Shown: positions 18,401 through 57,400 of the stretch, one piece after another
Layout of the letters: every line of letters begins with the position of its first letter
Numbering within the stretch: the stretch's first letter is position 1
NCBI RefSeq assembly: GCF_035083965.1
Contig: NC_089724.1
Coordinates: 8,472,501 to 8,536,500, forward strand
DNA length: 64,000 nt
Reading direction: 5' to 3'
From: Branchiostoma lanceolatum
Taxonomy: Eukaryota > Chordata > Leptocardii > Amphioxiformes > Branchiostomatidae
Position numbers and translations under genes: made by a program
The notes under the pieces: model-generated
Databases searched by the model: none
Told to the model about the DNA's origin: nothing
What the model saw: only the letters and a program-made list of their open reading frames with translations

Positions 18401-21400
18401 CGGTCAGGCACACAGGTCGCCAAAACAAGCAATGGCGCCACTCTTTACCTAACGTTGTACAAAGTCCTGTGGCGATGGAGAAGTGGCAACGGGAACAAGC
18501 AGAGGATGCTGCCGGGAGTTCTTAGCACACGACTCTGCACACAGGCGGCTGTGGGGTGATGGTCGTCCAACTGTAGACAGTGGTAGCTGCAGTGTTCGTA
18601 TCCTCCCACAGCGACAGAGCAGCCTTTTCTAGGGACAGCACTGCTCTCCCCGGAAGGGGAAGGGGAGATAAAAGGATCCCTAAAGAAAGCCTACCACACA
18701 GCGCCCCTGGCAGGAGGCCGTGCCTGCATGGGCATCCAGTCCTGCGGCCGAGGAAACAGGAGAAACAAGATAAGGAAGCCCCTGACTCTGGGGGCATGGA
18801 ATGTGAGGACTCTGCTAGACAGAGGAAACAGACCAGAGCGACGCACCGCACTCATTGCCAGGCTGTTGGGCCAGTACCAGATTGACATAGCAGCTCTGAG
18901 TGAGACCAGATTCGCTGGAGAAACTCAACTGGAGGAGATAGGCGGAGGCTACACCTTTTACTGCATCGGGAAGCCTCAAGATGCCTCGAGGACGTCTGGC
19001 GTTGGATTTGCTATTCGCACGGAGCTTGCGAGAAAGCTCGACAACCTACCGTGTGGGATCAATGACCGATTGATGACCTTACGTCTCAAACTTGCAAAGG
19101 ACTGCTTTGCCACCATCATTAGCGCGTACGCACCTACTATGACAAACCCAGATGATATCAAGGAAGCCTTCTATGAGGATCTCAACCGTGTCCTCTCGGA
19201 GGTGAACAGCAAGGACAAGATCATCCTCCTTGGAGATTTTAATGCACGAGTTGGAACAGATGTGTCCTCCTGGCCGAACGTCTTAGGACACCATGGCACC
19301 GGAAAGTGCAACTCCAATGGACTGATGTTGTTATCGATGTGTGCTCAACACAGACTGTCCATCACCAACACAATATTTCAGCAAGCGGACAAGTACAAAA
19401 ACACATGGATGCACCCTAGATCAAGACAGTGGCATATGCTAGATTACGTTATAGTGCGCCAAAAAGATAGAGGTGATGTGCATAGCACACGCTGCATGAG
19501 AGGAGCCGACTGTTGGTCCGATCATCGCCTACTCCGTAGCAAGATGGACCTTAACCTTGCTTTGAAAAGGAAGACGGCTAGAGAAAAGCCCCTGCGGAAA
19601 CTGAACATTGCTCAGGTCAGCATCAAGCAGGAAGCACTGCAGCAAAATCTTCAGAAATCACTGTCCAACATCGAGCAGGAGCAAGACAACCTGGAAAAGA
19701 AATGGAGGGCCTTCCGAGAGGCCGTCTACAGCGCTGCAGCTGACACCCTTGGTTTTGTAAAGAGGAAGCACCAAGACTGGTTTGATGAGAATGAAGAAGG
19801 CATTCAGAAGCTCATCGACAAGGTACATAAAGCACACAATGATCACCTTCATGACAAGACCAACAGCAGGACAAAACAGGATTACCAGCAGGCAAGGCAA
19901 CTTCTCCAGCAGAAGCTGCGGAAGATGAAGAATAACTGGTGGGAAAGAAAGGCTGAGGAGCTGCAAGCGGCAGCCGACAACCACGACATGAAGACACTTC
20001 ATGGAGGCCTGAGAGCCGTTTACGGACCCAAGGCATCTGGCTCAGCCCCAGTAAGATCTTCTGACCAGTCCACCTTGCTCACCCAGAAAACCGACATCCT
20101 TGCTCGATGGGCAGAACATTTCAACCATGTGCTGAACAGAGAATCAACCATCTCCGAAGAGGCAATCGCGTATTTGCCACAATTACCAACAAAGGACTCA
20201 ATGGCGGACCCCCCAACCACTGCTGAGGTTGTTAAGGCCTTGAGGCAAACAACACCCGGAAAGGCACCAGGAGCAGATGGGATTCCTGCTGATATCTACA
20301 AGAACGGAGGCGACGTGCTTCTAGCGAAACTGACGTCCCTGTTCAATTCCATCTGGGAAGCAGGAGAAGTCCCACAAGACTTTAAGGATGCATCCATAGT
20401 GCATATCTACAAGAGGAAAGGGGACAAAACATCCTGTGACAATCACCGCGGAATATCGCTCCTGTGTATCGCTGGGAAAATACTTGCCAGAGTTATCCTC
20501 AACCGGCTCATCACGAACATTGCAGAGACTGTCGTTCCTGAATCCCAGTGTGGGTTTCGAGCTGGAAGGGGCACCAGTGACATGGTTTTCGCTCTTCGTC
20601 AGGTACAGGAGAAATGTCGCGAGCAAAATCAGGAGCTTCACCTGGCCTTTGTGGATCTAACCAAGGCGTTTGATACCGTGAACCGGGAAGGCTTGTGGAA
20701 GATCTTGCAAAAGTTTGGCTGTCCAGACAAGCTTATAGCACTGATTGCCTCCTTCCACAAAGGCATGCAAGCCAGAGTCCAGGAGAACGGAGATGCCTCA
20801 GATCCCTTTGAAGTGTCCAATGGAGTAAAACAGGGCTGCGTCCTTGCACCTACCTTGTTCTCCATCCTGTTCGCAGCAATGCTCCTTGATGCCTTCAGCA
20901 GTTGTGAAAGAGGGGTGTACATCCAGTTCCGCTCTGATGGAAAACTCTTCAACCTGCGAAGACTCCAAGCCAAGACCAAAGTGTTCGAGGCCATCCTACG
21001 TGAGTTCCTCTTTGCAGACGATTGCGCACTGGGCGCACACTCCCATGAGGACCTGCAGTACATAATGGATCGCTTTGCAACTGCCTGTGGACGGTTCGGA
21101 CTCACGATCAGCCTAGGTAAGACTGAAGCCATGTTCCAGCCCTTACCATCACAGGCTGCCAACGTGCCACCACCTCCTCCCATCGTCATCAACAACACAG
21201 AAATCAAGACTGTGGGAAAGTTCTGCTACCTGGGTAGCACCATCACAAGCAGTGGATCTCTTGACGCAGAGGTGATGCAGCGCATTGGAAAAGCAAGTGT
21301 AGCCTTTGGCCGTCTCACGAAGAGACTGTGGCACGACCACGGCATCCGCCTCTCCACCAAGATTTCTGTGTACAAAGCCGTTGTACTGAGTGCACTTCTC

Positions 21401-24056
21401 TACTGCTGCGAGACCTGGACAACCTACCGCCGGCACATCCAACTACTGGAGCAGTTTCATCAGCGATGTCTCCGGAAAATCTGCAGCATCAAATGGCAGG
21501 ACAGAGTGTCCAACCTTCAGGTCCTAAAGAAGTGTGGCCTCCCTAGCATTGAATGCCTGATCATCAAGTGCCAGCTAAGATGGACAGGACACATTGTCCG
21601 CATGGAAGACAGCAGAATTCCCAAGATGCTACTATATGGGCAACTAAAAGAAGGGCACCGCAACCAGGGCAGACCCCTCAAAAGGTACAGAGACAATCTG
21701 AAGACAAGCCTTAAGAGCTGCAACATCAACGTTGACTGCTGGGAAGCCATTGCCCAAGACAGAGCGCTGTGGAGAAAACAGTGCGCGTTAGGAATTAGGA
21801 CATTCGAGGCCAACAGAGCTGCTGCTATTCAGGAGAAGAAGGAGAAGAGGAAACAGCGCTCCACACCAGACTGTTCCTTTCCGTGCAGCATCTGTGGCCG
21901 TTCATGTGCGTCACGAATTGGTCTTCATTCCCACATGAGGACCCACCTTGGCAAATGACGTGTGAGCCTACTCATCTGTCGTACCGACAGGAGAATCCAT
22001 CATCATCATCAAGACAAGGAAAATGAAACAAAAATATTTTCCGTTACTGTCTGACCTCTGTGAATTCTAGGTTGATGGGATCGCCGAGGATGGACCTGTC
22101 AGGCAGCTGATAGGCGGCATATTTCAGGAACTGTCCGTTCCACACCTTGTAGTCATGGCGACCGTCCGTGCGTGGCGGGAAAACAGTAATGGCCGACCTG
22201 GGGTTAAAGACAAATTTGAGAAAACCTAATTGAAGTAGATAAATATACCCAATTTAATGACATCAACATGCATTTTTCATGGAGGTGATAGCTGGAAACA
22301 GCCGTCATTAAGGGTACTCAAACAGTATCTCATAGTCTAACATCTTTCTATTCGAAAGGAAGACGATCGGCGAGTGTTGTAACTATCGGAAAGTATTGTT
22401 GATAGATAAGCTTTTGTTACCTGATATTCCCACCGTTGGTGGACCATTTGATGTGTCTGCAGATGGCTGCGAACATTTCTCGTGCTGTTCTGACGTCACG
22501 AGCGTCAAACACCTTCGAAAAATCCAAACAGTTCTGTTATATACTCCCTTTTCAACACTTTCAACTCACTAGATCTCATCTTATCAAAATTATCTCCCTA
22601 ATACTTTGTTTTCGAACGTTGGCATCTTGTTTAACGCGGAAAATGAAAATGGGTATCTCACCTGCAGTTTAGACCACTGGATACGTCCTATACACCTGGA
22701 TGAATTTCTCCACGCCATCTTGGCGCCATACACAAGCTCGTCGTACGTCATGTGATACACACTTTTCTCCTCCACCTGTTCCTGGACATCTTTCCAGCGT
22801 CTGTCACGCTCACCAGCATCCGAACTGTTGGAGATGACATAGCTAGTTGCAAACTCACGTTGGTAAAAACAAATCAGCTATCGAAAGATAAATGAGCTAA
22901 ATCAATGATTTCATTGTAAAGAGCAATTAGCACAAACCTCTTCAAGGAGGCAAAGTATTCGAAGATGAACTTCTTTGCTTGTTCGAGGACTTCTTCCTTC
23001 GGTCGGAAGTAGCCGGGTGCTGTGAACGGTCGTGGTCGCATCAGTGAACCGAGACATCTGCCGTCATTGCACGGGTTCACCTGGAGCAGAAAAATCAACT
23101 ATAAAGTGAAATATTCAATTTTCAATAAAATGCATTGTATTAATTCTATTTTTCTACTTGATGATGGTGTGGCAAAAATATACAGTCTTGGATAGTAGTT
23201 AGCCGATCTCATACGCTGAATTCTTCTCAGCGATCGCGAGGTTTCATTAACTAATCAATTAGATCATTCACGTTTCATGAAATTATAAGCAGCACACTAG
23301 CTAGCTAGTATTATAATTGTACTGTTAAACCTGCTGTTATAACTTGATGGCTCGTATGACAACAGGTGTGAATTGCATATTGACAACTAGTAGAGTCCTT
23401 ACACAGTTTCCTTTCACACTAAGGGTGTCGTGCATCGTCCATTCTTTTAGCCAGTTCCTCAGACGTACTGGTCTGCTGGTGGATGTCGGTACAACCATAC
23501 ACGTAGCTGCTTTCGATACAGTGACCGGGCATCCGTTTGCCACAGTACCATTCGTGGCAGTCTTGATTACGTCGTTCTGTTTCGTAACGGTCTTCTGCAA
23601 GGAGATGTCGCCTTGATTGTCGTGTTTCGGAATGGCTCGTCTGCTGAAAGTGTGGCCTCTCATGCGCTGTATGAGGAGGGTCAGTGCGCCGATGGGCCCG
23701 TTAGGCCTGGTGACTCGCACAGTTTTGGTCTCCCCGGTGCTCAGACGGATGGTCTCCAGGTAGGTGTGGAACCACTTCGGTCCGCGGAGGACGAGCTCGA
23801 CCGGCTTCCCCGGCTCGATGTCCCTGATGACCTTGGTCGCCTCCTGGTACTGGTACTCGATGTCTTGCCCGTTTACAGCGACGATGGTGTCCCCGGGCTG
23901 CACCATCCCGGTCTGGTCAACAGGCCCGCCTCGGATCACCTCCTCAATCACTACTTTTTCATGTTCTGCAGCACGGGGCTTGAGTGATATTCCAAGGCCA
24001 TCGGCTGTATCTTTTATCATCAGTTTAACGACGATGATGTTTTGCCGACACTCCAT
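9432..24056 (-). CDS. NOS: Nitric oxide synthase, PDZ-containing (neuronal type)
   Basis: This enzyme makes NO and citrulline from arginine, O2 and NADPH. Twenty-four exons join in phase to 1342 aa: 24056-23403, 23080-22938, 22824-22662, 22512-22421, 22197-22056, 17949-17810, 17736-17565, 17183-17082, 16812-16618, 16502-16390, 16145-16001, 14960-14856, 14521-14358, 13930-13753, 13350-13206, 13013-12935, 12745-12552, 12411-12242, 12087-11877, 11317-11230, 11066-10948, 10772-10612, 10177-9983, 9590-9432. Exon 1 encodes a PDZ domain ([23 protein letters not shown]), as in nNOS. The oxygenase domain has the zinc Cys pair CNDGRC, the heme Cys in [10 protein letters not shown] and the substrate Glu in [11 protein letters not shown] basic calmodulin-site segment ([20 protein letters not shown]) spans exons 10-11. 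FMN motifs are YATETGKSE and [18 protein letters not shown] motifs are [16 protein letters not shown] and [12 protein letters not shown]. The C-terminus RYHEDIFGV is conserved. The start ATG has a GCCATGG context. Exon 13's acceptor has a weak pyrimidine tract and is the least certain. Confidence 0.95.
11447..11876. repeat. 106-bp tandem repeat derived from NOS exon 19 end
   Basis: Three near-identical 106-base units start at 11553, 11659 and 11765. A fourth in register at 11871 is the genuine 3' end of NOS exon 19. A degraded unit precedes them at about 11447-11552. Each unit copies the last ~70 bases of the exon, including the splice donor (CGCGTG|GTGAGT on the minus strand), plus the start of the intron. 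The extra copies are downstream of the real donor in transcription order. Confidence 0.95.
13359..13414. repeat. AATC tetranucleotide microsatellite
   Basis: A short run of AATC repeats with TTAATC variants, immediately beside the acceptor of NOS exon 15 (intron side). Confidence 0.9.
13610..13666 (-). pseudogene. Partial duplicate of NOS exon 14 end
   Basis: About 55 bases closely match 13743-13799, the 3' end of NOS exon 14 with its donor. Shared runs include CCTTAAAGGCGCCCTTGAC and GGACTCCTCCTGTC. It lies about 130 bases further into the intron and has no acceptor of its own, so it is an exon fragment rather than an alternative exon. Confidence 0.85.
14049..14205. repeat. Truncated copy of the MITE at 43535
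   Basis: The sequence from TAATGCTTTGGTCC through CCCGGCCGGATCCC, CGCACGCTTAGCTCA and ACCGGGTCCCGCG parallels the element at 43535-43756. It includes a run of 15 G near 14069. It lies in the intron between NOS exons 13 and 14. The right terminus is not preserved. Confidence 0.7.
14988..15965 (-). mobile_element. 5'-truncated CR1/L2-like LINE in NOS intron
   Basis: The minus strand carries the C-terminal part of a non-LTR reverse transcriptase. [14 protein letters not shown] and FKYLGVWLD at about 15950-15760 are followed, with a frame break, by the thumb and tail at 15748-15200 ([28 protein letters not shown]). After the stop comes a 3' UTR with GGGCCTCCCTGAAAATCAG and GCTACCCTGGTAAA, ending in an A-rich AAATAAATAAA tail near 14990. 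The EN domain and the RT catalytic core are missing. The element is in the same orientation as NOS and fills nearly the whole intron between exons 11 and 12. Its tail ends only about 25 bases before the exon 12 acceptor. Confidence 0.85.
18019..18093 (+). repeat. Short dispersed repeat, family B, copy 1
   Basis: About 75 bases of the form AACCTTCTCCCTGATGCC...CTCTGTAACCAATAGGGAA...GTGCCAAACGGCTA...CAGTGTGCTA. Related copies occur at 31688-31761 (same strand) and 33035-33110 (opposite strand). It directly abuts the 5' side of the full-length LINE. I found no coding potential and no clear terminal repeats. Confidence 0.75.
18108..22012 (+). mobile_element. Apparently full-length non-LTR retrotransposon
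   Basis: This 3.9-kb element is inserted antisense in NOS intron 5. It has a 5' UTR of about 600 bases starting near CTACCTTGACGTGGTGG, one long uninterrupted ORF, and a short 3' region ending in a CATCATCATCATCA tail. No certain target-site duplication could be picked out. The 3' end lies about 45 bases from the NOS exon 5 donor. The domain order (AP-endonuclease, RT, C-terminal C2H2 finger) suits RTE- or Nimb/I-related clades; I cannot settle which. Confidence 0.9.
18728..21958 (+). CDS. LINE ORF: AP-endonuclease, reverse transcriptase, C2H2 finger
   Basis: The ORF has 1076 codons without a stop or frameshift. An AP-endonuclease (about aa 17-245) has [38 protein letters not shown] and SDHRLL. 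Its role is to nick target DNA. The reverse transcriptase (about aa 500-800) has [38 protein letters not shown] and the catalytic FADDCAL, and copies the RNA at the nick. The thumb region ([31 protein letters not shown]) follows. The C-terminus ends in a C2H2 finger, [21 protein letters not shown]. The ATG at 18728 follows a stop; the frame just before it carries no obvious domain. Intactness suggests a recent insertion. Confidence 0.93.
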   Translation: MGIQSCGRGNRRNKIRKPLTLGAWNVRTLLDRGNRPERRTALIARLLGQYQIDIAALSETRFAGETQLEEIGGGYTFYCIGKPQDASRTSGVGFAIRTELARKLDNLPCGINDRLMTLRLKLAKDCFATIISAYAPTMTNPDDIKEAFYEDLNRVLSEVNSKDKIILLGDFNARVGTDVSSWPNVLGHHGTGKCNSNGLMLLSMCAQHRLSITNTIFQQADKYKNTWMHPRSRQWHMLDYVIVRQKDRGDVHSTRCMRGADCWSDHRLLRSKMDLNLALKRKTAREKPLRKLNIAQVSIKQEALQQNLQKSLSNIEQEQDNLEKKWRAFREAVYSAAADTLGFVKRKHQDWFDENEEGIQKLIDKVHKAHNDHLHDKTNSRTKQDYQQARQLLQQKLRKMKNNWWERKAEELQAAADNHDMKTLHGGLRAVYGPKASGSAPVRSSDQSTLLTQKTDILARWAEHFNHVLNRESTISEEAIAYLPQLPTKDSMADPPTTAEVVKALRQTTPGKAPGADGIPADIYKNGGDVLLAKLTSLFNSIWEAGEVPQDFKDASIVHIYKRKGDKTSCDNHRGISLLCIAGKILARVILNRLITNIAETVVPESQCGFRAGRGTSDMVFALRQVQEKCREQNQELHLAFVDLTKAFDTVNREGLWKILQKFGCPDKLIALIASFHKGMQARVQENGDASDPFEVSNGVKQGCVLAPTLFSILFAAMLLDAFSSCERGVYIQFRSDGKLFNLRRLQAKTKVFEAILREFLFADDCALGAHSHEDLQYIMDRFATACGRFGLTISLGKTEAMFQPLPSQAANVPPPPPIVINNTEIKTVGKFCYLGSTITSSGSLDAEVMQRIGKASVAFGRLTKRLWHDHGIRLSTKISVYKAVVLSALLYCCETWTTYRRHIQLLEQFHQRCLRKICSIKWQDRVSNLQVLKKCGLPSIECLIIKCQLRWTGHIVRMEDSRIPKMLLYGQLKEGHRNQGRPLKRYRDNLKTSLKSCNINVDCWEAIAQDRALWRKQCALGIRTFEANRAAAIQEKKEKRKQRSTPDCSFPCSICGRSCASRIGLHSHMRTHLGK

Positions 24057-27221: not shown

Positions 27222-29730
27222 CTATGAGGTTCCGAATGACGTTCTGATCGGGTCAGACTCAACACCATCGTTTGTACGCTTCTCTGCCTGGCCATGACAC
27301 CAACCAGACAGGCGGACCCTGGCCCTATTCAAGATATACGTCACAATTTCTCTGTCCTCGGGGGTCACAAATGTCTCTTTCTCAACAAAGAAAGCGTCCA
27401 TCATGACAGTCGCGAAGAAATTCAGGAGGACGAAATTCATGATGAGAACGAAACTGATGAAAAAGATGGTCCCCAACGTTGGAAACATGACGTAATCGTC
27501 CAGTTGGTACGAACCAATCACAAAGTCTGTTACGGTTAGGAATGCGTTGTAGATGGTGGAGTAAGACTCGACGTAGCCGCCGAAAGAGATATTACCCAGC
27601 ATACCGTAGGAAAACATGAGGACTAAAATGACGCCTCCGTGTGACAACATGGGGCTTATAACTCTTCCGAAAGTCTTCTGCATCAAATAGAGACTGTTGT
27701 TTCCCCTCAGTAACTTACAGCATCGACAACAGCCAATGAAGGCCAAGATAGACACCACGATTAGCTGGGTTCTATCCACAAGGACAACTGGAGCGATGTT
27801 GAGAAACGAGGAGTTGTTTTCGCGATAGTTTTTCAGAGTATTTTCAGTCAAAATCATTCGTGCAACAAAAGCAGCGACTGCTATCAGAGACAAAATTACA
27901 ACCATCAGGTCTAAAACCTTCCATACGTCTTTGAAATATTCAATCCTATCTTTAAGAATGCCACGTACAGCGTAATAGATGAAGTAGGCCAGGAAAATGA
28001 CGTAAGCAATCTGAAAGGTCAAAAGCACAAGGTCAGTGGTTTGGTTGTAAAGATGGAGGCGCAAGACTGGTAGATCGAACTGGACTCTAGCTCTTCCAAT
28101 TGCTGGGGTTTCGACAAGTACGGAAACCACATTGAACAAGTCCACGTTAGCATTGTACAGAGTGAAATCCACAAAAACGGCTCTTGTCTGTCTATCTATC
28201 CAGCTCATGTTACGGAGTTCGCTCAAGTGGTGGTTATGATCGGGAGGTCTTGGATCAATGTCTATCACGTATCCACCACTGTCGTAGCGGTATAGCGACC
28301 AAATACTGTCTGTTTGTCTGTAGATCCAAGGGCCTGAGGTGTTCGTTAGGTTTGGCACTCCCGTCCATCCAGGATGGTAGTGACCTTTGACCGCACTACC
28401 ACGTGTGTAGTCCTCCGCGCACAGGTCAAAGTACAAGGACAGCAATCTGGCGCTGGAGACTCTTCCGCCGTGAAACACACACGTATCTAATGGTGAAAGA
28501 GGAATTCAATCAGTAAATATAAAGACAGAGAAGTGTCAATACTACACCGTGATCTATTCATGTTGGCATTACTGCACTCCAAGTATGTTTTATTAAACTT
28601 TCTTGTGATTTACTTTTCCACCTGTGCAGCAAGTAAGGAATTTCTGTCATAAAAGATTCCACATTCGAACGATTGTTCATTACTAACGAAGATTGGATGG
28701 TTTCTGGTAGGATAGTTTTTATCACACACCATATGCATAACCTTACATCGTAACGTCACAACATATACCTATTGCATGTAATCCAGTGGAAATGTGGTCC
28801 CTACTACATATACGCTGAGCAGCCAATCATCCAAGCAAAACTGCAATCTGATATGACCTAGTTATGAAATGTGAACTAGACTTTAGAAGATCATATTATA
28901 CAATACTTCGAATCGTTTTGAGACGCTGGCTATTGTTGTTTCCAGATGAGTTTATGTGTTGAAATACCCACCTAACGGGACCCGTACTTGGCGCATTCTC
29001 ACTGCCCCAACAAGAACAGACTGACCGTCGGCAGTGTATCCGTCCGCGGACACTTTCGGGAACACCTCATTCTCCATCCAATAATACACATCGAGGCTGA
29101 CATTAATCTGTATAAAACCAAATTGATAAACACTATTTCTATGATGAACTCTTGGTCTATGTAACTTATATGTTTGATGTTGAAGGAGACGTTGATAGAG
29201 CAGTACGTTCTAGAACCGCAAGGGAGCGCTATAAGGGATTGAGAAGGTGAAAGAACGTCACAGCAATGTGAGATACAACAAATCAAGAGCAAGCAAGAAC
29301 GTTACGAGTAGAAACAAAAATGGCAAGGAACACCGAAATGTACACGGGCGACTGATGACAAAATTAAGAAATAATGCCTTTTAATTGATTGCTTTCTTGT
29401 TTGAATTGTTGGGCTTGACATGTTTTTCAAATCTAGGTAAGCTATTACAATGAAGATATGCTATCCCTCTTCATTCAAAATAATTTACCTTGTCCAGCTT
29501 AGACAGAAATGTATTTTCCACGCTGTTGCTGAGATGATAGGCGTCTGGCACGGCCATGGTGTGCGCTATTCCAAGCACCAACAGCACGAAGATCATGTAC
29601 CTCCCCGTCTCGAGGACTAGGTTGTACAGTCCAGCCTCCTTCAGTGTTAGTCTACCAATGTCCACGTCTTTGCGGGGAGGAATTCCGACTTCTGCTTTCT
29701 CTTCTTTGGGAAAGTGTGCTTCCGCACGGG
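27222..29730 (-). CDS. Polycystin-family channel, C-terminal part (5' incomplete)
   Basis: Three exons join in phase to about 547 codons: 29730-29489, 29107-28972, 28486-27222 (stop TAG). They encode a first membrane segment (GRYMIFVLLVLGIAHTM), then the extracellular polycystin domain. This includes RQVRVPLDTC and a W..YRYDSGGYVIDI region, with NxS/NxT sites. Five further segments follow: LLTFQIAYVIFLAYFIYYAV, VLDLMVVILSLIAVAAFVA, LIVVSILAFIGCC, GGVILVLMFSYGMLG, and IFFISFVLIMNFVLLNFF after a pore loop (AFLTVTDFVIGSYQ). Polycystin-1-like proteins end in this module and act in cation channels or receptor complexes. The first exon opens mid-protein with phase 2, so at least one upstream exon exists; I found none up to 32.5 kb. 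No EF hand or coiled coil follows the last segment, unlike PKD2. It resembles PKD1-like/REJ relatives more than PKD2. Confidence 0.85.
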
Positions 29731-32794: not shown

Positions 32795-34121
32795 ATGTTT
32801 GTGAAATCTAGTTTCGCCGCCATCTTCGTCGCCGTCACTTTGGCGTCGTCACATTCAGGTGAGTTACATTGGATGTTCCCATGATGTACAATATTGTGGA
32901 AGATGTTATACCTCTTTTCAATCATAGCTAAACGTTGAAGTTTATTTCGTGTTTTTTACGTTGCAGATACCCCCATCCAACAATGATATATTCCGACCCA
33001 TTACATAGAAACAAGCAAATAAACATGCATTAACCTTAGCACACTAAAGTAGCTGTTTGGCACCCGATTCTCTATCAGTTACAAAGTTAGGCAGCAGGGA
33101 GAAGGTTAAAGAAACATCGAAAAAGAATAGCGTAGAAAATGACATTGTGACTATGTTTCCAAGCTTTTAATGCTCAGCGACACAGGGTCACTCACCAGAT
33201 TCCGTGCCACTATGACTTTACTCATTGATGTTTTATATTGAACCTGTTGTAGGCACATCCCTGGCCTGTGAGGGTCCGGTAACGTCTTTCTCCGGAAAAC
33301 AGACGATTCGAGACGACCTCGGCACCGACGGCGCTCTCCTGCGAGACCAGGACACCTCGTCCCACAACGCCGACAAAGTCTGGTACCTGCCCAGGTACAT
33401 CGGGAACACCATCGAGGAGTACCGCACGATGGACGACTTCGCTGCGGGGAAGGTCCTGACCACCTACCGCCTGCCTGGGTCGACAGGGAGCGGGGGGATG
33501 GCGTGGTGGGGACAGGGTCATGTCGTCTACAACAACGCCCTCTACTTCCAACGATTCCCCGACTGCCTGTCGTATAGTTATGACTGTAGTAACGAGAAGG
33601 CGCAGATAGTTAGGTACGACTTTAGTCTCAGGGCCTTTACCTCACTACAGGCGCTCCCGACCGCCCAGCTCTCCCACTGGGCCGCGGGCCCATCTTACGT
33701 CTACCTGGCCATCGATGCGGGTAGTGTGTGGGCTATCGGCCTTAACAACGGTGTATTCCAGCTAACTAAGCTAAACGCACACGATCTCAGTGTAGAAGAG
33801 ATCATAGACACAGAATTCGCCGACCCGTCTTCAAACATGCCTCCGTTTATTTCATGTGGGAAATTCTATAGCACTGTACCCGACCGCGCAGTTCAATACG
33901 GCCCATTGGCCTCCCGAACCACACTTATTTTCGATCTAGCCACTAAGCAGAAAGACACGTCGACGCGAGCCTGGTATTGCTTGCCCACTGAAGCTCGACG
34001 CTACTTCTCGATCAATTCTCGCGAGAACAAAGTGTACACAGTCGAGTCGAATGCTTTGGTCAGCTATGACGTAACCTTCGGCGGATCATATTTAGCTGAC
34101 CCTGCTACATGTGCTATTTAA
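32795..34121 (+). CDS. Small secreted olfactomedin-domain protein 1
   Basis: Two coding exons, 32795-32858 and 33253-34121, join in phase to 310 aa. The first encodes a signal peptide (MFVKSSFAAIFVAVTLASS). The second is a single olfactomedin domain beginning LACEGPVTSFSG and containing VWYLPRYIGNTIEEYRTM, MAWWGQGHVVYNNALYF and YDFSLRAF. It ends YDVTFGGSYLADPATC. OLF domains form beta-propellers used in extracellular protein-protein contacts. There is no coiled coil or linker, so this is nearly a bare OLF domain, shorter than typical noelin or myocilin relatives. The OLF exon is very similar to 38750-39615. AATAAA at 34137 is a likely poly(A) signal. Confidence 0.92.
33035..33110 (-). repeat. 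Short dispersed repeat, family B, copy 3
   Basis: Reverse complement of the repeats at 18019 and 31688: TTAGCACACTAAAGTAGCTG, TTGGCACCCGATTCTCTATC, AGGCAGCAGGGAGAAGGTTA. It lies in the intron of olfactomedin gene 1. Confidence 0.75.
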
Positions 34122-37433: not shown

Positions 37434-39615
37434 ATGGCGCACGGTGTTCCCCGTGCGTTAACGGTCGTTATGACGTTTGTGTTCCTGTGCTCTGCTCAGC
37501 CGACGGTCAACTTTAAACCACCGCCAGACGACAAATGTGTGTGTAATGTCAACTGTGGGGACAACAGCGCACTGAAATCAGGGCTGGATCAGCTGAGAAT
37601 CGCCGTCAACCAACTTTCAGAGAAAATGGATAGGTCTGCAGGTGAGCCAGCTCATCTTAGAGACATTTACTTTTTACTGTATTTATATGAAAAGTAACGA
37701 CGCTAAGAATTAATGTTTACTCTGAACTAGAGAGCGGGTTTACTACATGTTACAATCAGGTAGTAAAATTAATTTGATTTTTTTTTTAATTTTTATGGTG
37801 GTTTCTTTGACAGAACCCACACAACAGGATGAGGTGCTGCAGCCGACGACAGAGAGTGTCTCAAACTTTACAACTCGACCAGTTGCCATGACGACAACAA
37901 TAACACCGTCGCAAGGTACGTTTGTATTAAAGGTTATGGGTACCTCGGTTCGGCATCTGATAATGTCACTCTAAGCTTGCGTTGCAAACGTCTCCGCAGC
38001 TTTGAGAAGAGGTGCCTATTGTTGCTAAACTAAAAAAATATTCTTCTCGAGCCCGAATTTAGCCATGTATTACTCTCACAAACATGTATTTTGTATATGC
38101 GTCGATGAAGGAGATTAGATATGGAAATAACTAGTATATCTATTATCATGCATGGATCTTGAACCAAATTCGTTGCGTCCGTGCTTGCATGGCCATGCTT
38201 GCATAGTCATGCTTGCATAGTCATGCTTGCATAGTTATGCTTGCATGATCATGCTTGATGCTTGCGCGCTCTTGCGGCGCTCTTAGTTTGGGCGCTCTTA
38301 GGGCCCTGTTACACTTGTGCGTATATTCAAGTGCGCATGATTTGCGCAGTAGGTTCAAGGAAAGTTTGCGGGGAAGGAATTGTTTTCTGCGTCGACCCAC
38401 CGATGTGCAGCCTAGTTATCGAACCAAGGAAATGACTTCTTGGGCTGAAAACTCAATCTTGACCAAAAACATGTTGATCCGCAACTCATGCGGACGCGCA
38501 AGTGTGAAAGGGGCTTTACAGCGCTAAACTGCGCTCGCTGCGCGCTCTCACGGCGCTCAGCGTGCCCATAACAAACCTTTCAAACACAATTTTCATACAA
38601 GTTAACACAAAGTTAACAAATCCTGTTATGTCATTGTGACTTTTTTTTCTCACTTTCATGATCAATGCCAAAAGAATCGTAAGGAAGCTTGTTTATAGGT
38701 CGCAACTAATGATTTGCTCACGGAAACTATTGCATTGAATCTTTTGTAGGCCCATCCCTGGCCTGTGAGGGTCCGGTAACGTCTTTCTCTGGTAGACAGA
38801 CGATCAGAGACGACCTCGGCACCCACGGCGCTCTCCTTCGCGATCATTCCTTCTCACCGGACAACGCCGACAAAGTCTGGTACCTTCCGACACCTTCCGG
38901 GAACACCATCGAGGAGTACCGCACGATGGGCGACTTTGCTGCGGGGAAGGTCCTGACCACATACCGCCTGCCCGGGTCGGCAGGCAGCGGTGGAATGGCG
39001 TGGTGGGGACAGGGCCATGTAGTCTACAACAACGCCCTCTACTTCCAACGATTCCCCGACTGCCTGTCGTATAGATATGACTGTAGCAACGAAAAGGCGC
39101 AGATAGTCAGGTACGACTTTAGTCTCAGGGCTTTTACGGCGCTCCAAGCGCTTCCTACCGCTCAGCTGTCTCACTGGGCCGCGGGCCCGTCTTACGTCTA
39201 CCTCGCCGTCGATGCGGGTAGTGTGTTGGCTATCGGTGTTAGCAATGATACATTCCAGCTGACTAAGCTTAACGCAAACGACCTTAGTGTAGAAGAGGTC
39301 ATAGATACAGAATTCACAGACACGTCTTCAAACATGCCTCCGTTTATTGCTTGTGGGAAATTTTATAGTACTATACCTTATCGCATTTTTCAACTCGGCC
39401 CACCCTCCCAAACCAATCTTATTCTCGATCTAACCACTAAGCAAAAAGACACTTCTACAAGAGCATGCTATTGCTTAGCTAGTGTAGGTCGACGCTATTT
39501 CTCGATCAATTCTCGCGAGAACAAAGTGTACACCGTCGAGTCCAATGCTTTGGTCAGCTATGACGTAACCTTCGGCGGATCATATTTATCTGAGACCGCT
39601 ACATGTGATGTTTAA
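37434..39615 (+). CDS. Secreted olfactomedin-domain protein 2 with stalk
   Basis: Three exons, 37434-37641, 37814-37915 and 38750-39615, join in phase to 391 aa. Exon 1 has a signal peptide (ALTVVMTFVFLCSAQP), then a Cys-rich and heptad-like stretch (CVCNVNCGDN, SGLDQLRIAVNQLSEKM) that could oligomerise. Exon 2 is a Thr/Ser-rich linker (TTRPVAMTTTITPSQ), probably O-glycosylated. Exon 3 is the OLF domain, near-identical in many stretches to that of gene 1, including DTSTRA and RRYFSINSRENKVYTVESNA. The signal-coil-linker-OLF layout is typical of noelin-like proteins. I chose the ATG at 37434 over the in-frame ATG at 37362 because it places the hydrophobic segment at the N-terminus. Confidence 0.9.
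38170..38262. repeat. 14-bp tandem repeat in olfactomedin gene 2 intron
   Basis: About six units of TGCTTGCATAGTCA with single-base variants. Confidence 0.9.
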
Positions 39616-48400: not shown

Positions 48401-51400
48401 CAATTGTAATCAAGTTGTCACAGTTAAGATGAATTGCTTGTATTACAAGTTGATATTGTAGCAAATTAACAACAAAGGTACCATGGTAGAGACGTTCTCC
48501 TACTCGAAAGCTTCACCAGCGCCTCATACCATTTACCTCGGGGAGGCTATGTTAAATTGGGCTGAGGTTCTCACTCATTGTGGCCGACAGCTGGATAGTG
48601 GCCAAAAGTAGGAACGTCAGCCCAGTTTAGCATGCTTATTGTGTAGTTTTAGTCCTAAAACATCTTGTGATGAGTTTTTTTTATAACCTCAGCCCGGTTT
48701 AGCTGAGCCAACCCTAGCCTCTTCAGCGGCCTTACACGAGCGCTGGCGTTTATTGTTGGGGGGAGGACTGATTCGCGATTTTCAACATTAGGCCAGTTTC
48801 TTATGCCGGAAAGGTCGTTTCTTCGCCCGCAACGCTCGTGGAAGGCTACGAAGGAGGCTAAGCCAAGCCCACCCCGACCCCCCAAAGTATAGGCCACGGA
48901 CGAGGCTCTGCGCAGGAAAATGGATAAGTATGATAACGTTTCTAACCATTACAGTCCTTCCCTTGCCATCCAGGTAGACAGGTGCACATATAGCCATCCA
49001 AGACTTCACTGCAAGTCCCACCGTTCAAACATGGATTATTCATACACTGAAAGTGTCAATGACAAAAAATCAATCGATTATTTTGAATGTGGTTGATATT
49101 TTTATTACGAGAGAGAATTAAGTGGAAACAAAAGAAGCCGTCTGTAGGCTCAAAGTGGTAAAGCAAAAAACACCCTCCATCTTAAGTTTGTAATTCCACT
49201 TTTCCCATTTCAACAATTGCTAATATTATCAATGTGCAAGCATTTAGGTGAAAACTTTTTACACCTGATGAACAAGCATGTTTTACTCTTAAACATGATA
49301 TCAATTAATTTTATGATAATTAATTTCTAATTTTTTCTTCCTGCAGGAAGCCCTGCAGATTCTGCAGGAATTCCTGCAGAAAGAATTAATCCTGCAGGAA
49401 TTTCTGCAGGAAATGCAATTTTTCCTGCAGGGAGGAACACAAATTCCTGCAGGAAGAATTATTCCTGCAGGAGAACATGATTTTCCTGCAGGGGAGATAC
49501 ATGCATTCCTGCAGGAAAAATTATTCCTGCAGGAGAACATGATTTCCTGCAGGAATTCCTACAGGGAGAAACTTACAGGAAATCAGGGTTCTCCTGCAGG
49601 AAAATGTTATCCTGCAGGAATTCCTGCAGAAATAATTTTTCCTGCAGGTTTCTCTGCAGGAATAATTCAGAAGAAATCTGATTTCATGCAGGAGGGACAT
49701 CATATTTACAGACATTTTAGAAGGCTCATAAAGAAGCCATTGTGTAAATCTGCTCAGCAAGTTGAAGGTAGTCCTCAAGCTCAGAAAAGAAACTCGTAGA
49801 GCTGAGGGAGCGGAAGAAGATTGGAAAAGACTGAATGCAGCTGCAGGACGTCTCCACGACTGTTACAGTAGATGCAGAAACCAGTAAATGATGATCATGT
49901 GTATGTGGAAACCCTGTCTTTTTATTTCACAGAATTACTGTTTACAAACCAGGCATTATTTAAGGCTCTGTGTAGGGTAGATATTTTTTTATGTTCAGTT
50001 TGCATTTGCAGAAGTTAAACATATTTCATATTGTTTTGCTGTGTTTTCTTCTTTTTCCCTTCCAAACAAGGTCAACGACCTTGACCAGACGGCTGTCACC
50101 ATGGTTACTGGTAAAGTAGCAGATACCCAGTGGTGTTCGATTACATTATGAACAAAGTGCTGGATGGGGCTGGTCACCATACATATGAATATGTTTGAGT
50201 AAGAATAAACAGAGTAGTAGTTTGTGAGCTATAGCCAAGTGTATGGTGGACCAGGTGAACATTATGTATTTGCTTGTTACCTTTCTAGTCATGACTTATT
50301 TCCGGTAACGTTAACGTAACTTCTGATAAACCAGTGTCACTTCCTTTTATACATCCTCCCCGGACTAGACTGAATACAAAAGAAACCAAGAAATTAACCT
50401 GTCATAAACCTATCATCACAGAACGCTTCAAATAGAAGCTTTGAACCTATAACAATAAGACTTAAATGTTGAGTATATTGGACCAGCCTGTTGTGTTATC
50501 ACCTCGTACTTCCTAACACTGATTTGCGCCACATGCAAGTTCTTTGCTAAACAGGTTCTTGCAAAATGATGTGAACGTGAAGATTGGATATCACCTTATC
50601 TACTGCAGAAACTACGAAACGTGAATTAAAAGCCGGTACCACATAACGTTAATGCCAGGTATGATTATCAAAACGTTTCTCAAAAATATTGGTACCCAAA
50701 AAAATCTTTAAAAAACAGCATGAAAAAAAACACGAAAAAATCCGAAAGCTAAAACCTGCTATTGTCGGCAAACGTTAACAATGTCCACCATTTGGTTGTG
50801 GGGGGCGGCAACTTCTTCTCACTGTATGAGGAACACTTCATTTCACTGAAATGAGAGCAAGTAACAAAAAGGACGGGAAAGGGACCTATATTGGCGGCGG
50901 GAAATACTATTAAGGTTTTAGTATACTATTCTGTGTGCAGCTGCTTGTTTGCATGGGGCATAAAAACGTACCCAGAAATGACCTACAGTAGTGGTTTACA
51001 CGTCCTGACTTTGGAAAACATTTTGGTGTTGTGAAGTAACGTCCCACCGGTACAGCCAAATGACTGGAGGTAACCCCCAGTGGTAATGCCATTCTTAACC
51101 CTGATTGGTTGCAGCTGCCGTTGTTAGGCCGTCCCACAAGATAGAAGGCGGTACTGCCACACCCCGCGCACGTGAACAGGGCATGACCGCTCCGAGCTTG
51201 AGTATGCTACATTTCAGCTTGAGTATGCTACATTTCAGCAAGTTGGGAATCCTTGCTGGCATTATTAGTAATGTAAGACAAAGAAGTAAATGTTGTGCAT
51301 TTCTTTCTTTTTTGTACGACGTTGATGGTTTGTGTTCAACGTTGGCCGACACCAAGCTTTAAATATAATAGTTAATTGTTTAAAGGGAGAAATTAATCGG

Positions 51401-54400
51401 CGGCCATGTGATCGTAGCACAGTCTTTCAAATCATGGACCAGGAGGCCTTCTAGTTTGAACGTGGAGAAAAAGAAGTTAGCCTGACCAACTCACGCTCCT
51501 TCCGACCCGCCCGACAGACTGCCCCCTGAAAACTTGATATCAAAACCCATAAGTTGGCAAAACTGGTCTTCCAAATATGGTTAATATACGTCAACGTCAT
51601 GAGCCGTCCCTCGAAAGTACGGCTCTGCCTGGAGAAGGTTGTTATGTGTCTGTCAGTCTCTACGCAGTCATGGACGCCTTTGATCTGCAAAGTTTTGCCG
51701 GCGATGGGCATGGTCAACCTGCTAAAGTGTGATCTCTTTCTTTCCCCCATCTTTTGCGTTTGAAAAAATTGTGGCACGATGTTCATATTGTTCCAGATAT
51801 TTTCTGGGCCGGGATTTTAGAACCGAAGTTGTGATCCTGTACGCACCAAACCCGTCTTCCACTTGCGGTCATTTTTAGGTTTTCACTCGAGTGAAAGTAA
51901 CGCCGTAACACCCTTTTTTCCCTGGGTGCCTTAGGTCAGAAAAAAATATGTTATCGCCATCGCCGGCAAAACTTTGCAGATCAAAGGCTTCCATGACTGC
52001 GTAGAGACTGACAGACACATAACAACCTTCTCCAGGCAGAGCCGGCTTTGCTGTTTTTTAAAGATTTTTTTGAGTACCAATATTTTTGAGAAACGTTTTG
52101 ATAATCATACCTGGCATTAACGTTATGTGGTACCGGCTTTTAATTCACGTTTCGTAGTTTCTGCAGTAGATAAGGTGATATCCAATCTTCACGTTCACAT
52201 CATTTTGCAAGAACCTGTTTAGCAAAGAACTTGCATGTGGCGCAAATCAGTGTTAGGAAGTACGAGGTGATAACACAACAGGCTGGTCCAATATACTCAA
52301 CATTTAAGTCTTATTGTTATAGGTTCAAAGCTTCTATTTGAAGCGTTCTGTGATGATAGGTTTATGACAGGTTAATTTCTTGGTTTCTTTTGTATTCAGT
52401 CTAGTCCGGGGAGGATGTATAAAAGGAAGTGACACTGGTTTATCAGAAGTTACGTTAACGTTACCGGAAATAAGTCATGACTAGAAAGGTAACAAGCAAA
52501 TACATAATGTTCACCTGGTCCACCATACACTTGGCTATAGCTCACAAACTACTACTCTGTTTATTCTTACTCAAACATATTCATATGTATGGTGACCAGC
52601 CCCATCCAGCACTTTGTTCATAATGTAATCGAACACCACTGGGTATCTGCTACTTTACCAGTAACCATGGTGACAGCCGTCTGGTCAAGGTCGTTGACCT
52701 TGTTTGGAAGGGAAAAAGAAGAAAACACAGCAAAACAATATGAAATATGTTTAACTTCTGCAAATGCAAACTGAACAACAACAAAAATACCTACTCTACA
52801 CACAGAGCCTTAAATAATGCCTGGTTTGTAAACAGTAATTATGTGAAATAAAAAGAAAGGGTTTCCACATACACATGATCATCATTTACTGGTTTCTGCA
52901 TCTACTGTAACAGTGGTGGAGACGTCCTGCAGCTGCATTCAGTCTTTTCCAATCTTCTTCCGCTCCCTCAGCTCTACGAGTTTCTTTTCTGAGCTTGAGG
53001 ACTACCTTCAACTTGCTGAGCAGATTTACACAATGGCTTCTTTATGAGCCTTCTAAAATGTCTGTAAATATGATGTCCCTCCTGCATGAAATCAGATTTC
53101 TTCTGAATTATTCCTGCAGAGAAACCTGCAGGCAAAATTATTTCTGCAGGAATTCCTGCAGGATAACGTTTTCCTGCAGGAGAACCCTGATTTCCTGTAA
53201 GTTTCTCCCTGTAGGAATTCCTGCAGGAAATCATGTTCTCCTGCAGGAATAATTCTTCCTGCAGGAATGCATGTATCTCCCCTGCAGGAAAATCATGTTC
53301 TCCTGCAGGAATAATTCTTCCTGCAGGAATTTGTGTTCCTCCCTGCAGGAAAAATTGTATTTCCTGCAGAAATTCCTGCAGGATTAATTCTTTCTGCAGG
53401 AATTCCTGCAGAATCTGCAGGGCTTCCTGCAGGAAGAAAAAATTAGAAATTAATTATCATAAAATTAATTGATGTCATGTTTAAGAGTAAAACATGCTTG
53501 TTCATCAGGTGTAAAAAGTTTTCACCTAAATGCTTGCACATTGATAATATTAGCAATTGTTGAAATGGGAAAAGTGGAATTACAAACTTAAGATGGAGGG
53601 TGTTAAAAGGAGCTAGACACCCCCTACCAGTATCTAAAAAAGTTCAAAGACATGAAATGAAAACAAACTAAAGGAAAGAAGGATATCTTGTGAGATTGGG
53701 AATGAAATTGAGATGAATGTACTACTAATATAGAAACGTGGATAGATTGAACTAATATTTCTAGCAGACAGGCTCAGAATTTGTTCTATTGAAAAAGTGG
53801 ATAGATCAGCAAATTCTTACGATTTTTTTCCCCTGGCTGGGTGCACAGGATACTTTGGCCTTGTGATTGCACATTTTCTTCGCCTGGTCCCAGTACAGTC
53901 CATCCGGGCACTTCAGTGTGAAGGCGCGCCCTGCCAGACACAGGTGATAGGTGGCGCAGTCTGCCGTGTCCCCGTAGAATTTCCCCTCCGGCAGATTGGA
54001 ACAGTCGAAGGCTGCCAAGTAAAATAGGTTACATGTTGTTTCGCTACATTGTCAGTTCGCCACATGGCAAGTCGTTTCGCCACAAGTTGTTTCGCTAAAT
54101 TGTCAGTTTGCTAGCTACATGGCAAGTCGTTTCGCCGCAAGTTGTTTCGCTAAATTGTCAGTTCGCTACATGGCAAGTCGTTTCGCGCACAATTCGCTAC
54201 ATGACACAAGTTGTTTCGCTAACTTGTCAGTTCGCTACATGGCAAGTCGTTTCGCCACAAGTTGTTTCGCTAAATTGTCAGTTCGCTATATGGCACAAGT
54301 CGTTTCGCTACATGGCACAAGTTGTTTCGCTAAATTGTCAGTTCGCTACACATGGCAAGTTCTTTCGCTACATGGCACAGGTTGCTTCTCTACATGGCAC

Positions 54401-57400
54401 AACTTGTTTCGCTAAATTGTCAGTTTGCTACATGACACAAGTTGTTTCGCTAAATTGTCAGTTCGCTACACATGACAAGTCGTTTCGCTACATGGCACAG
54501 GTTGCTTCTCTACATGGCACAAGTTGTTTCGCTAAGTTGTCAGTTCGCTACACATGGCAAGTTCTTTCGCTACATGGCACAGGTTGCTTCTCTACATGGC
54601 ACAACTTGTTTCGCTAAATTGTCAGTTCGCTACATGACACAAGATGTTTCGCTAAATTGTCAGTTCGCTACACATGACAAGTTGTTTCGCTACATGGCAC
54701 AAGTTGCTTCTCTACATGGCACAAGTTGTTTCGCTAAATTGTCAGTTCGCTATATGGCACAAGTCGTTTCGCTACATGACACAAGTTGTTTCGCTAAATT
54801 GCCAGTTCGCTACACATGGCAAGTTGTTTTGCTACATGGCACAAGATGTTTCGCTACATGACACAAGCCGTTTCGCTACATTTGAATGTTATTTCCCTAG
54901 ATAGACAAATACGATTACAAATCGTATTCCTGCAATCATGTTCGTATTTGTAACGTAACATGACCTAATTACGTGCGGGAGAAGTTAACGTCCGGTGTGG
55001 GTCATGTCCACATGTCGAGGTGTATTATGCCAAAGCCTGTTCTCATGAGCAATAAAGAACGTCATAAATATGATCCTTAGCCATCTCTCTCTTTTATACA
55101 AAACAATGAAAAAGGTGTCCGTCCAGCGACATAACAGAATAAACTCCTTAACCAGTAACAACAAGTTGCACCGAATCGTCGTGCATTGTCGAGTTTTAGA
55201 AAGGTTTGATACAACCTAGCGACCCCCGGACTGGAGGTTAATTTCTGCACGGCAAAACATTATAGCCATGTGTTTATCACGTGGACGCCACGTGCCGCGC
55301 ATCTCGTTGAAATTTACAGATCAAAATTGTTTTGTTCCATCGCGTCAAGCAAGTGGCGGGTCAAACATAATGACTTTACTATCATTTGTCTGTAGACCAC
55401 TTTGGATAGTTACTGTGCATTTTTTAATGGTCTATGTTCTTCAAGCATAGCGCCAGAAGGGAAAAGGCTGAGGTGTACGATAATGGGTTACGCTAGCACA
55501 ATTTTACATCATATACATCACTATAGATACATGCTCGCACGGCGTTAAACAGGCGGAGAAAAACTTACAGGCCATGCATTTTCTTTTAGAATAGCTGATA
55601 TTTCTGCCCATGGGTTTAACATTTGGCTCTGTCCACGCGGTTTTGAGATAAGTACGTTTTGAATAAATTGGACGTTAACTGGTCACGTTACGTTAGATGT
55701 CAATGAAAGAAATCATGACATCTGTCTTAGTTAGCTATTCGTATGTCACGACAGAGCAAATGTTACTAGCGTACCTTGCTATTCCCATGTACTTGTTGAA
55801 TGAAGCTCGTTTGTTCTTTCAGACCCTACAGTGCCTAGTCTTACATAGGGCAGCAAGTTTCCTTGCTGTTTCAGTGGCAGGGTATATTGTTTTTGCTAGC
55901 CCTTCCCCATGCTCGTGGCAACTTCTTGAACATCTGACCCCCATCTTTACGTCCCTTCCGAAAGACGGTGCAGCCCCAACCGAGATGTCCTGACTCCGTG
56001 ATTTGAGCCGGGGTCTCCCAGCTTCCAACTAATTGGAATAAAGATCTCAACTTTGAGTTTTCTACCAGTTGAGCCATAGGGGCATCATTACTTGCCCTTT
56101 CTGAATAGAGAGACGAACAATTAAAAAGTAACATATATTTCTAAAAAAATGCGTAGATAAAATATTACGAAAGTTCATTCACCCCAAAAGCAGACCTAAG
56201 AGACTAATAAGTCTGGTGTGTCATGGTGTGTGTTCTAAAAGGTAATAACCAAACACCACCCTGTAAGCTAACAACGTTATGCAAACATGCTATTTGTGGA
56301 TGACTAAATGTGATCACAACGTCATTCGTTATAGGTGAAGGCCGCAAAGCCAGGGTTGACGACAAAGTAACACAGCACATCGCCGCATTCCAACAAAAGA
56401 AAACATTATCATCAATCACTCATTATCAGTATCTTATCTTAATTGAAATATCCCTCTGACGTAGAAAACGGATTTTAGAGTCAAAATCGTTCAGCAACAA
56501 CAGTATGGCACCCTGACCCAAATTTTCTGCTATGTTTACGCAGCTTGCCGTGATTCGGTCGCCAGGATGACGAATTTGCAGCTGTGCTCAGTGCACACCA
56601 CCCACTGGGCAACGAAAACCTGTTTCTGTCATTCTTTTGTACTTAATTGGCTATTCAATCTTTTCTGTAGTGGCATGTGTAGTCCTCTGTATCAAGATAG
56701 GTCAGGTTTTATTTGCATCTGGAGTATTTGCTGCTTGTGATGATTCTGTCACTGTTTAACAGCAATTATAACATACCAGAAGAAACAAGGAGTTGTCGTG
56801 TAGCTGTTGTTAATCACTCCGAATCAAATGCAGTAAAGGATATGACGTCATAACAAATCAACCCTTGTATGTGATAAATTTCACGTAGAGGATTTTATCT
56901 TTTATAGAAATTAATAAAAGTACTTGAAAAAATGTTTCTGGCAATGTTGTTGTTCCCTTCCGCTAAACTCGTTTTGCATTTTTTAGACTTAGGGAAAGTT
57001 TGATGAACTTCAGTTTTAATTAAGGGAGGTATCAAACAATGGCATTCTTGACTGTCGGTGATCCTTGATTGATGAACTTGCGGCATTGTACCACTAAATA
57101 CGCAATTCTCCATCATGTTGACTTAACGCTGTCGTAAAAGAAGTTTCGCAACCACACGCATTATCTAAACCAATCAATCGTAAGCTTCTTACGCGTGGCA
57201 AAATTCCATCCGACAGTTATGTACGAAGAATCAACGCGTTTGAAATGAACTGTTATCGCAGACTGCTACGAGTCCACTGGACATCACACACCACAAACAA
57301 AGAAGTCAAGAAACGCATCCACACTCTGCAAGGCCCACTTGACAGTTTCTTGTCCTTAGTTAAGAAGAAAAAACTGCAGTGGTTCGGGCATGTGTCTAGG

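Follow-up and report, generated by a model that had tools for sequence, protein, structure and literature searches.

A 4436-bp palindrome in an apparent amphioxus intron: a probable non-autonomous foldback-like transposon with arrays of self-complementary sites

A 64,000-nt stretch of the Branchiostoma lanceolatum genome (contig NC_089724.1, positions 8,472,501 to 8,536,500 of the forward strand; hereafter the window, in whose numbering all positions are given) contains an inverted repeat of 4436 bp at 49169-53604, and this element is probably a non-autonomous, foldback-like DNA transposon with long terminal inverted repeats that has entered an intron of an animal gene. The original prediction, made from the letters of the window without database searches, had given exactly these coordinates and had proposed a foldback transposon built around CCTGCAGG octamers. 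Two features of the foldback class are present, namely long inverted arms that make up most of the element and a repeat domain within each arm, and the inverted repeats exceed the 100 bp that serve as the criterion for foldbacks among the Mutator-like elements (MULEs). When the 25 longest of the 515 inverted pairs in the window were examined, the arms of the element formed the two longest, and the remaining 23 connected low-complexity tracts. Compared to known foldback elements, this one is an unusual example of an otherwise known kind, with an odd cluster of self-complementary sites in its arms.

The earlier description of two 1.56-kb arms that are near-perfect reverse complements agrees well with the measurements, as the main parts of the arms have lengths of 1552 and 1556 nt and share 98.97% identity over 1556 columns in a BLAST alignment. 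The arms differ by 13 substitutions (7 transitions and 6 transversions) and two indels; the indels are 2 bp each in the BLAST alignment and the BLAST identity implies 16 differing columns, so that the count of substitutions depends on the alignment by one. Each arm is laid out as an end of about 170 nt, a repeat domain, and an inner domain of about 1 kb, and the middle of the element is without a Pfam domain. The inverted homology also resumes further inward for 88 bp with 1 mismatch, a continuation that had been overlooked in the original prediction; with this part included, the arms are about 1.64 kb each and enclose a loop of 249 nt. The distance from the main arm to the inner continuation is 899 bp on the left side versus 4 bp on the right, and either a one-sided insertion or a one-sided deletion may have produced this difference, between which a single copy does not discriminate.

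Divergence between the arms is unevenly distributed: 12 of the 13 substitutions fall in the outer 823 bp, and the other 729 bp contain a single one. No event of any kind falls in a stretch of 705 bp, the longest such gap (P = 0.0018 if 15 events are placed uniformly), and this gap becomes 716 bp (P = 0.022) when the group of events at 800-823 is counted once. This pattern fits patchy gene conversion (homogenisation) as well as late growth or duplication of the inner part, and it does not separate the two. The suggestion that the low divergence between the arms reflects recent birth or ongoing gene conversion is plausible.

The inverted homology breaks off sharply at AACACCCTCC, and a comparison of the 400-bp flanks in the inverted sense revealed no further similarity (score of 10, compared to a mean of 10.4 and a maximum of 14 in 100 shuffles). 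Within the 64-kb window, AACACCCTCC occurs at the two ends of the element only, and there was no further copy among the BLAST matches listed. On the minus strand, Pfam domains are present on both sides of the element, CBM_14 to its right and EGF to its left. The order, strand, and phase of the exons suggest that the element apparently sits in one intron of a minus-strand CBM_14/EGF gene, although the phase match by itself has a fair chance of being an accident. This apparent intron measures 4774 nt with the element and 338 nt without it. The complete-looking 338-nt intron formed by the flanks is the expected remainder if an element has entered a small intron, and a simple fold-over of the assembly is unlikely in view of it. 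As a separate observation, TTCGCTACATGGCACAAG-type units recur with several periods (22, 60, 82, 120, and 202 bp) in a minisatellite-like array at 54031-54881, which adjoins the CBM_14 exon.

The window contains 25 CCTGCAGG octamers, 24 of which are in the element (12 per arm, where about a dozen self-complementary sites had been proposed), and triple clusters of CCTGCAGG were found 14 times in the window versus none in 100 dinucleotide shuffles. In the left array, the CTGCAG cores lie at 49341-49659; 16 of the 17 spacings are between 9 and 23 bp, and the one remaining spacing of 47 bp contains a CTGCAG site with one mismatch. There are duplications inside this array, one pairing 49359 with 49609 (7 mismatches in 54) and the other pairing 49430 with 49492 (6 mismatches in 54). 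The spacing is therefore irregular, as had been claimed, but it is not formless, since the irregularity stems in part from these internal duplications and the cores tend to a phase of 10.4 bp. The 18 cores of the left array favour this common phase with an R of 0.70; when spacings were permuted or redrawn as null models, P was 0.007 when the period was restricted to the 10-11 bp band, and 0.008-0.012 when it could take any value between 8 and 30 bp. None of the 18 cores deviates from the mean phase by more than 2.9 bp, and the two CTGCAG hexamers with one mismatch deviate from it by no more than 1.3 bp. A period of 10.4 bp is close to the helical repeat of DNA and fits sites that are bound by protein on one face of the helix, which is suggestive and not conclusive. 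Helical phasing thus gives modest, indirect support to the earlier proposal that the array binds transposase. The 17 spacings also tend to multiples of 3 (mean resultant of 0.655), with the reservation that the spacings are interdependent through the internal duplications.

Table 1. Positions of the element, its parts, and the flanking features in the window
Feature	Positions	Strand	Size	Remarks
Whole foldback element	49169..53604	.	4436 bp	ends AACACCCTCC...GGAGGGTGTT
Left arm, main part	49169..50720	+	1552 nt	
Right arm, main part	52049..53604	-	1556 nt	reverse complement of left arm
Left palindromic array	49340..49659	.		18 CTGCAG cores, 12 full CCTGCAGG
Right palindromic array	53114..53433	.		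mirror copy of left; 18 cores, 12 full octamers
Inner continuation, left arm	51620..51707	+	88 nt	
Inner continuation, right arm	51957..52044	-	88 nt	
One-sided segment, left only	50721..51619	.	899 bp	right side has 4 bp there
Central loop	51708..51956	.	249 nt	
Candidate target-site duplication, left copy	49165..49168	.	4 bp	AAAA; weak
Candidate target-site duplication, right copy	53605..53608	.	4 bp	AAAA; weak
Host exon with CBM_14 domain	53821..54011	-		Pfam domain; ends in phase 0 before GTAAGA donor, boundaries read by eye
Host exon part with EGF domain	48957..49046	-		Pfam domain, coordinates from residue numbers; phase 0 start after TTTCAG, boundary read by eye

In its structure, and perhaps in its mode of action, the element resembles a foldback element. 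A transposase made elsewhere would recognise the outermost ends, aided by the subterminal array, in which each palindromic CCTGCAGG site would be a docking site for a dimeric DNA-binding domain, with the sites on the same helix face, and the two mirror arrays would increase the recognition and the pairing of the ends. The array would serve as a set of secondary transposase-binding sites, as in Galileo, and its palindromic core would suit a dimeric binder. At a later time, one side would have been rearranged, resulting in the 899-bp difference, and the arms would have been partly homogenised.

The array, as distinct from the element, could instead be a by-product in which hairpin-forming CTGCAG units were multiplied by slippage and unequal exchange; this is possible but rather doubtful, and it is compatible with a transposon. 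A single strand of the array folds into a very stable structure (z of -16.2 as DNA and -18.4 as RNA, with none of 100 shuffles equally stable in either case), compared to a z of 0.14 for the neighbouring 331 nt folded as DNA, and the internal duplications are also in line with such an origin. On the other hand, the 10.4-bp phasing of the cores speaks against it, and none of the 13 mismatches in the two duplicate pairs falls in a CTGCAG core, a count that is biased because the cores were picked as exact matches. The by-product explanation also gains nothing from the spacers, as a hairpin design is unsupported there: in 10 of the 17 spacers (those longer than 6 nt, with the exception of one of 41 nt), 22 of 47 inner pairs were complementary versus a shuffle mean of 16.9, which is not significant (P = 0.064). 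Because the tested spacers add little, the stability of the fold probably comes largely from the palindromes themselves.

Several results weigh against the transposon reading. The flanks have only AAAA in common beside the ends, which is weak evidence for a target-site duplication. Four or more such bases are found in 0.65% of random position pairs and 1.1% of local pairs, but the length of this candidate duplication had not been predicted beforehand. The 7-10 bp target duplications of the named families are absent from the flanks, where neither a 7- or 8-bp duplication (Galileo and P elements) nor an 8-10 bp duplication (MULEs) was present. A six-frame Pfam search of 49169-52048 found neither a P-type transposase nor a MULE transposase or a remnant of one. 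When the internal duplications were tied in the null models, the P values for phasing weakened to 0.023 for the 10-11 bp band and 0.064 for any period; in addition, the idea of testing for phase came from an initial inspection of these very sites, and the right array, a copy of the left, is not an independent test. The proposal of a foldback transposon is partly supported, in that it fits the anatomy, namely the abrupt common ends, the long arms with a repeat domain, the flanks without inverted similarity, and the apparent location in one intron. As the duplications of the P and Mutator families were not seen, the element is not filed under P or Mutator.

The six-frame search of 49169-52048, in which stops were read as X, found no Pfam domain at all; the right arm, a near-copy of the left, was not scanned apart. 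None of the ten chosen frames of the window that were also searched against Pfam, four of which are in the element, had a match in the element, and an Rfam search of the whole window at gathering thresholds returned 0 matches. A non-autonomous copy may be without transposase sequence. An open frame of 159 codons at 49320-49799 was rejected as a gene, with no Pfam match and with all four of the arm-to-arm substitutions within the frame changing the residue.

Two explanations dispense with transposition of the element altogether. Template switching or break repair may have produced a second, inverted copy of an intron sequence with the CCTGCAGG array, in which case the palindrome never moved. 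We consider such a local inverted duplication unlikely, even though it would be in keeping with the lack of a convincing target duplication and with an element known from one copy, and even though a palindrome that grew stepwise could also show the long inner stretch free of mismatches and an 899-bp difference on one side. The flanks alone form the complete-looking 338-nt intron, so the arm would be needed beforehand as extra intron sequence, which is one more assumption; moreover, an order of end, array, and inner domain that is mirrored to the last base would be a coincidence. Neither counterpoint is decisive. It is less probable still that the palindrome is an artefact of the assembly, with an arm duplicated in inverted orientation or two haplotypes joined. 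Long palindromes are generally prone to misassembly; however, 13 substitutions, two indels, and a one-sided segment of 899 bp distinguish the arms, and the flanks are unlike each other and carry phase-matching exons on one strand.

The FB elements of Drosophila and the TU elements of sea urchin resemble the present element, by their general description, in having a repeat domain inside long inverted arms; they differ in that their repeats are short direct tandem units and their target duplications are 8-9 bp. Foldback elements of both animals are mentioned in a report on Tetris (PMC4079207). Tetris of Drosophila virilis is apparently non-autonomous, and its arms, which reach 1735 bp, are divided into a flanking, a repeat, and an inner domain; it has tandem repeat units of about 220 bp, duplications of 8-10 bp, and several copies (PMC4079207). 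It is similar to the present element in having long arms of three domains and a middle without apparent coding capacity (PMC4079207); in contrast, the present element has short palindromic sites at varied spacing instead of tandem units of about 220 bp, flanking duplications of at most 4 bp instead of 8-10 bp, and one known copy instead of several. In Galileo, a member of the P superfamily, the direct repeats of the long arm contain two binding sites for the THAP domain of the transposase, and the authors of that work consider that multiple sites may supply specificity (PMC3688188). Galileo arms extend by way of repeats, recruited internal sequence, and inserted elements (PMC3573991, PMC4168063), and such growth offers an obvious parallel to the 899-bp difference between the two sides here. 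Long arms with internal repeats are common to Galileo and the present element; however, the duplications of Galileo are 7 or 8 bp long and there are Galileo copies that contain transposase sequence, whereas the present element has at most 4 bp, no trace of a transposase was found in it, and its repeated core is a perfect palindrome. Muta1, a MULE of Aedes aegypti that has been called a type 2 Foldback, has a 10-bp imperfect palindrome as its terminal motif followed by 9 copies of a 12-bp repeat (PMC5225508). Short subterminal repeats that follow a terminal motif are thus common to Muta1 and the present element, but Muta1 differs in its 145-bp arms, its regular direct repeats with spacers of 3-4 bp, its 8-9 bp duplications, and its encoded transposase (PMC5225508). 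In one library of open-licence PubMed Central papers, nothing was found on foldback elements of amphioxus or Branchiostoma, on CCTGCAGG with inverted repeats, or, of relevance here, on palindromic repeats in terminal inverted repeats.

The sequence collections that were searched consist of viruses, phages, plasmids, and prokaryotes and have no bearing on copy number in the host. Neither an 18-base end of the element nor a stricter pattern of three CCTGCAGG sites was present in any viral contig, 26 bases of the end were present in no prokaryote contig, and blastn against phages and plasmids gave no match. The 19-mer CCTGCAGGAATTCCTGCAG was found in 1 viral contig, which is without an array and was judged unrelated. 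Triple CCTGCAGG sites were found in at least 119 stretches of prokaryote contigs, and the densest of 120 loci (these and 1 viral locus) had 9 sites in 330 bp, compared to 12 in the window. The sequence context was read for the two densest of the 119 prokaryote loci, L115 (6480-6920, 9 sites in 330 bp) and L071 (1-480, 7 sites); both look like tandem coding repeats and were judged unrelated.

On both strands, many sites of the array (TTCCTGCAG/G) are similar to a 3' splice acceptor core by the consensus as generally known. By the same consensus, the outermost site in the sense of the host, TTTCTAATTTTTTCTTCCTGCAG/G at 53426-53455 on the minus strand, is a good-looking 3' splice acceptor, and with 53426 as the first exon base it is followed by an open stretch of about 150 codons in phase 0, the phase that fits the upstream exon. 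Use of the array as an exon to soften the damage of an insertion is speculation. A fuller scheme, in which a foldback family has its ends recognised through an array of palindromes on one helix face, a dimeric transposase or host factor coats about 320 bp per arm, and the array is exonised and softens intronic insertion, is improbable as a whole.

Elsewhere in the window, a stop-free frame of 1123 codons at 18587-21958 (+) belongs to a non-LTR (long terminal repeat) retrotransposon, with endonuclease and reverse transcriptase, and has a weak C-terminal match to a C2H2 finger that is under the cut-off of Pfam. The frames at 33216-34121 and 38713-39615 (+) are alike by eye and are probably a gene pair, the first of them matching the olfactomedin domain in Pfam, and a frame of 427 codons at 27225-28505 (-) is of the polycystin family of channels. 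Together with CBM_14 and EGF, the olfactomedin and polycystin domains and the split genes point to an animal as the host.

A long palindrome in an intron is a possible starting point for inversions and deletions. The reason for the repeat-filled kilobase arms of some DNA transposons is only partly understood; among the papers compared here, Galileo, with its footprints and gel shifts, is the one case. If the reading given here is true, the phased palindromic sites of this amphioxus element would be a compact second case of repeat-filled arms.

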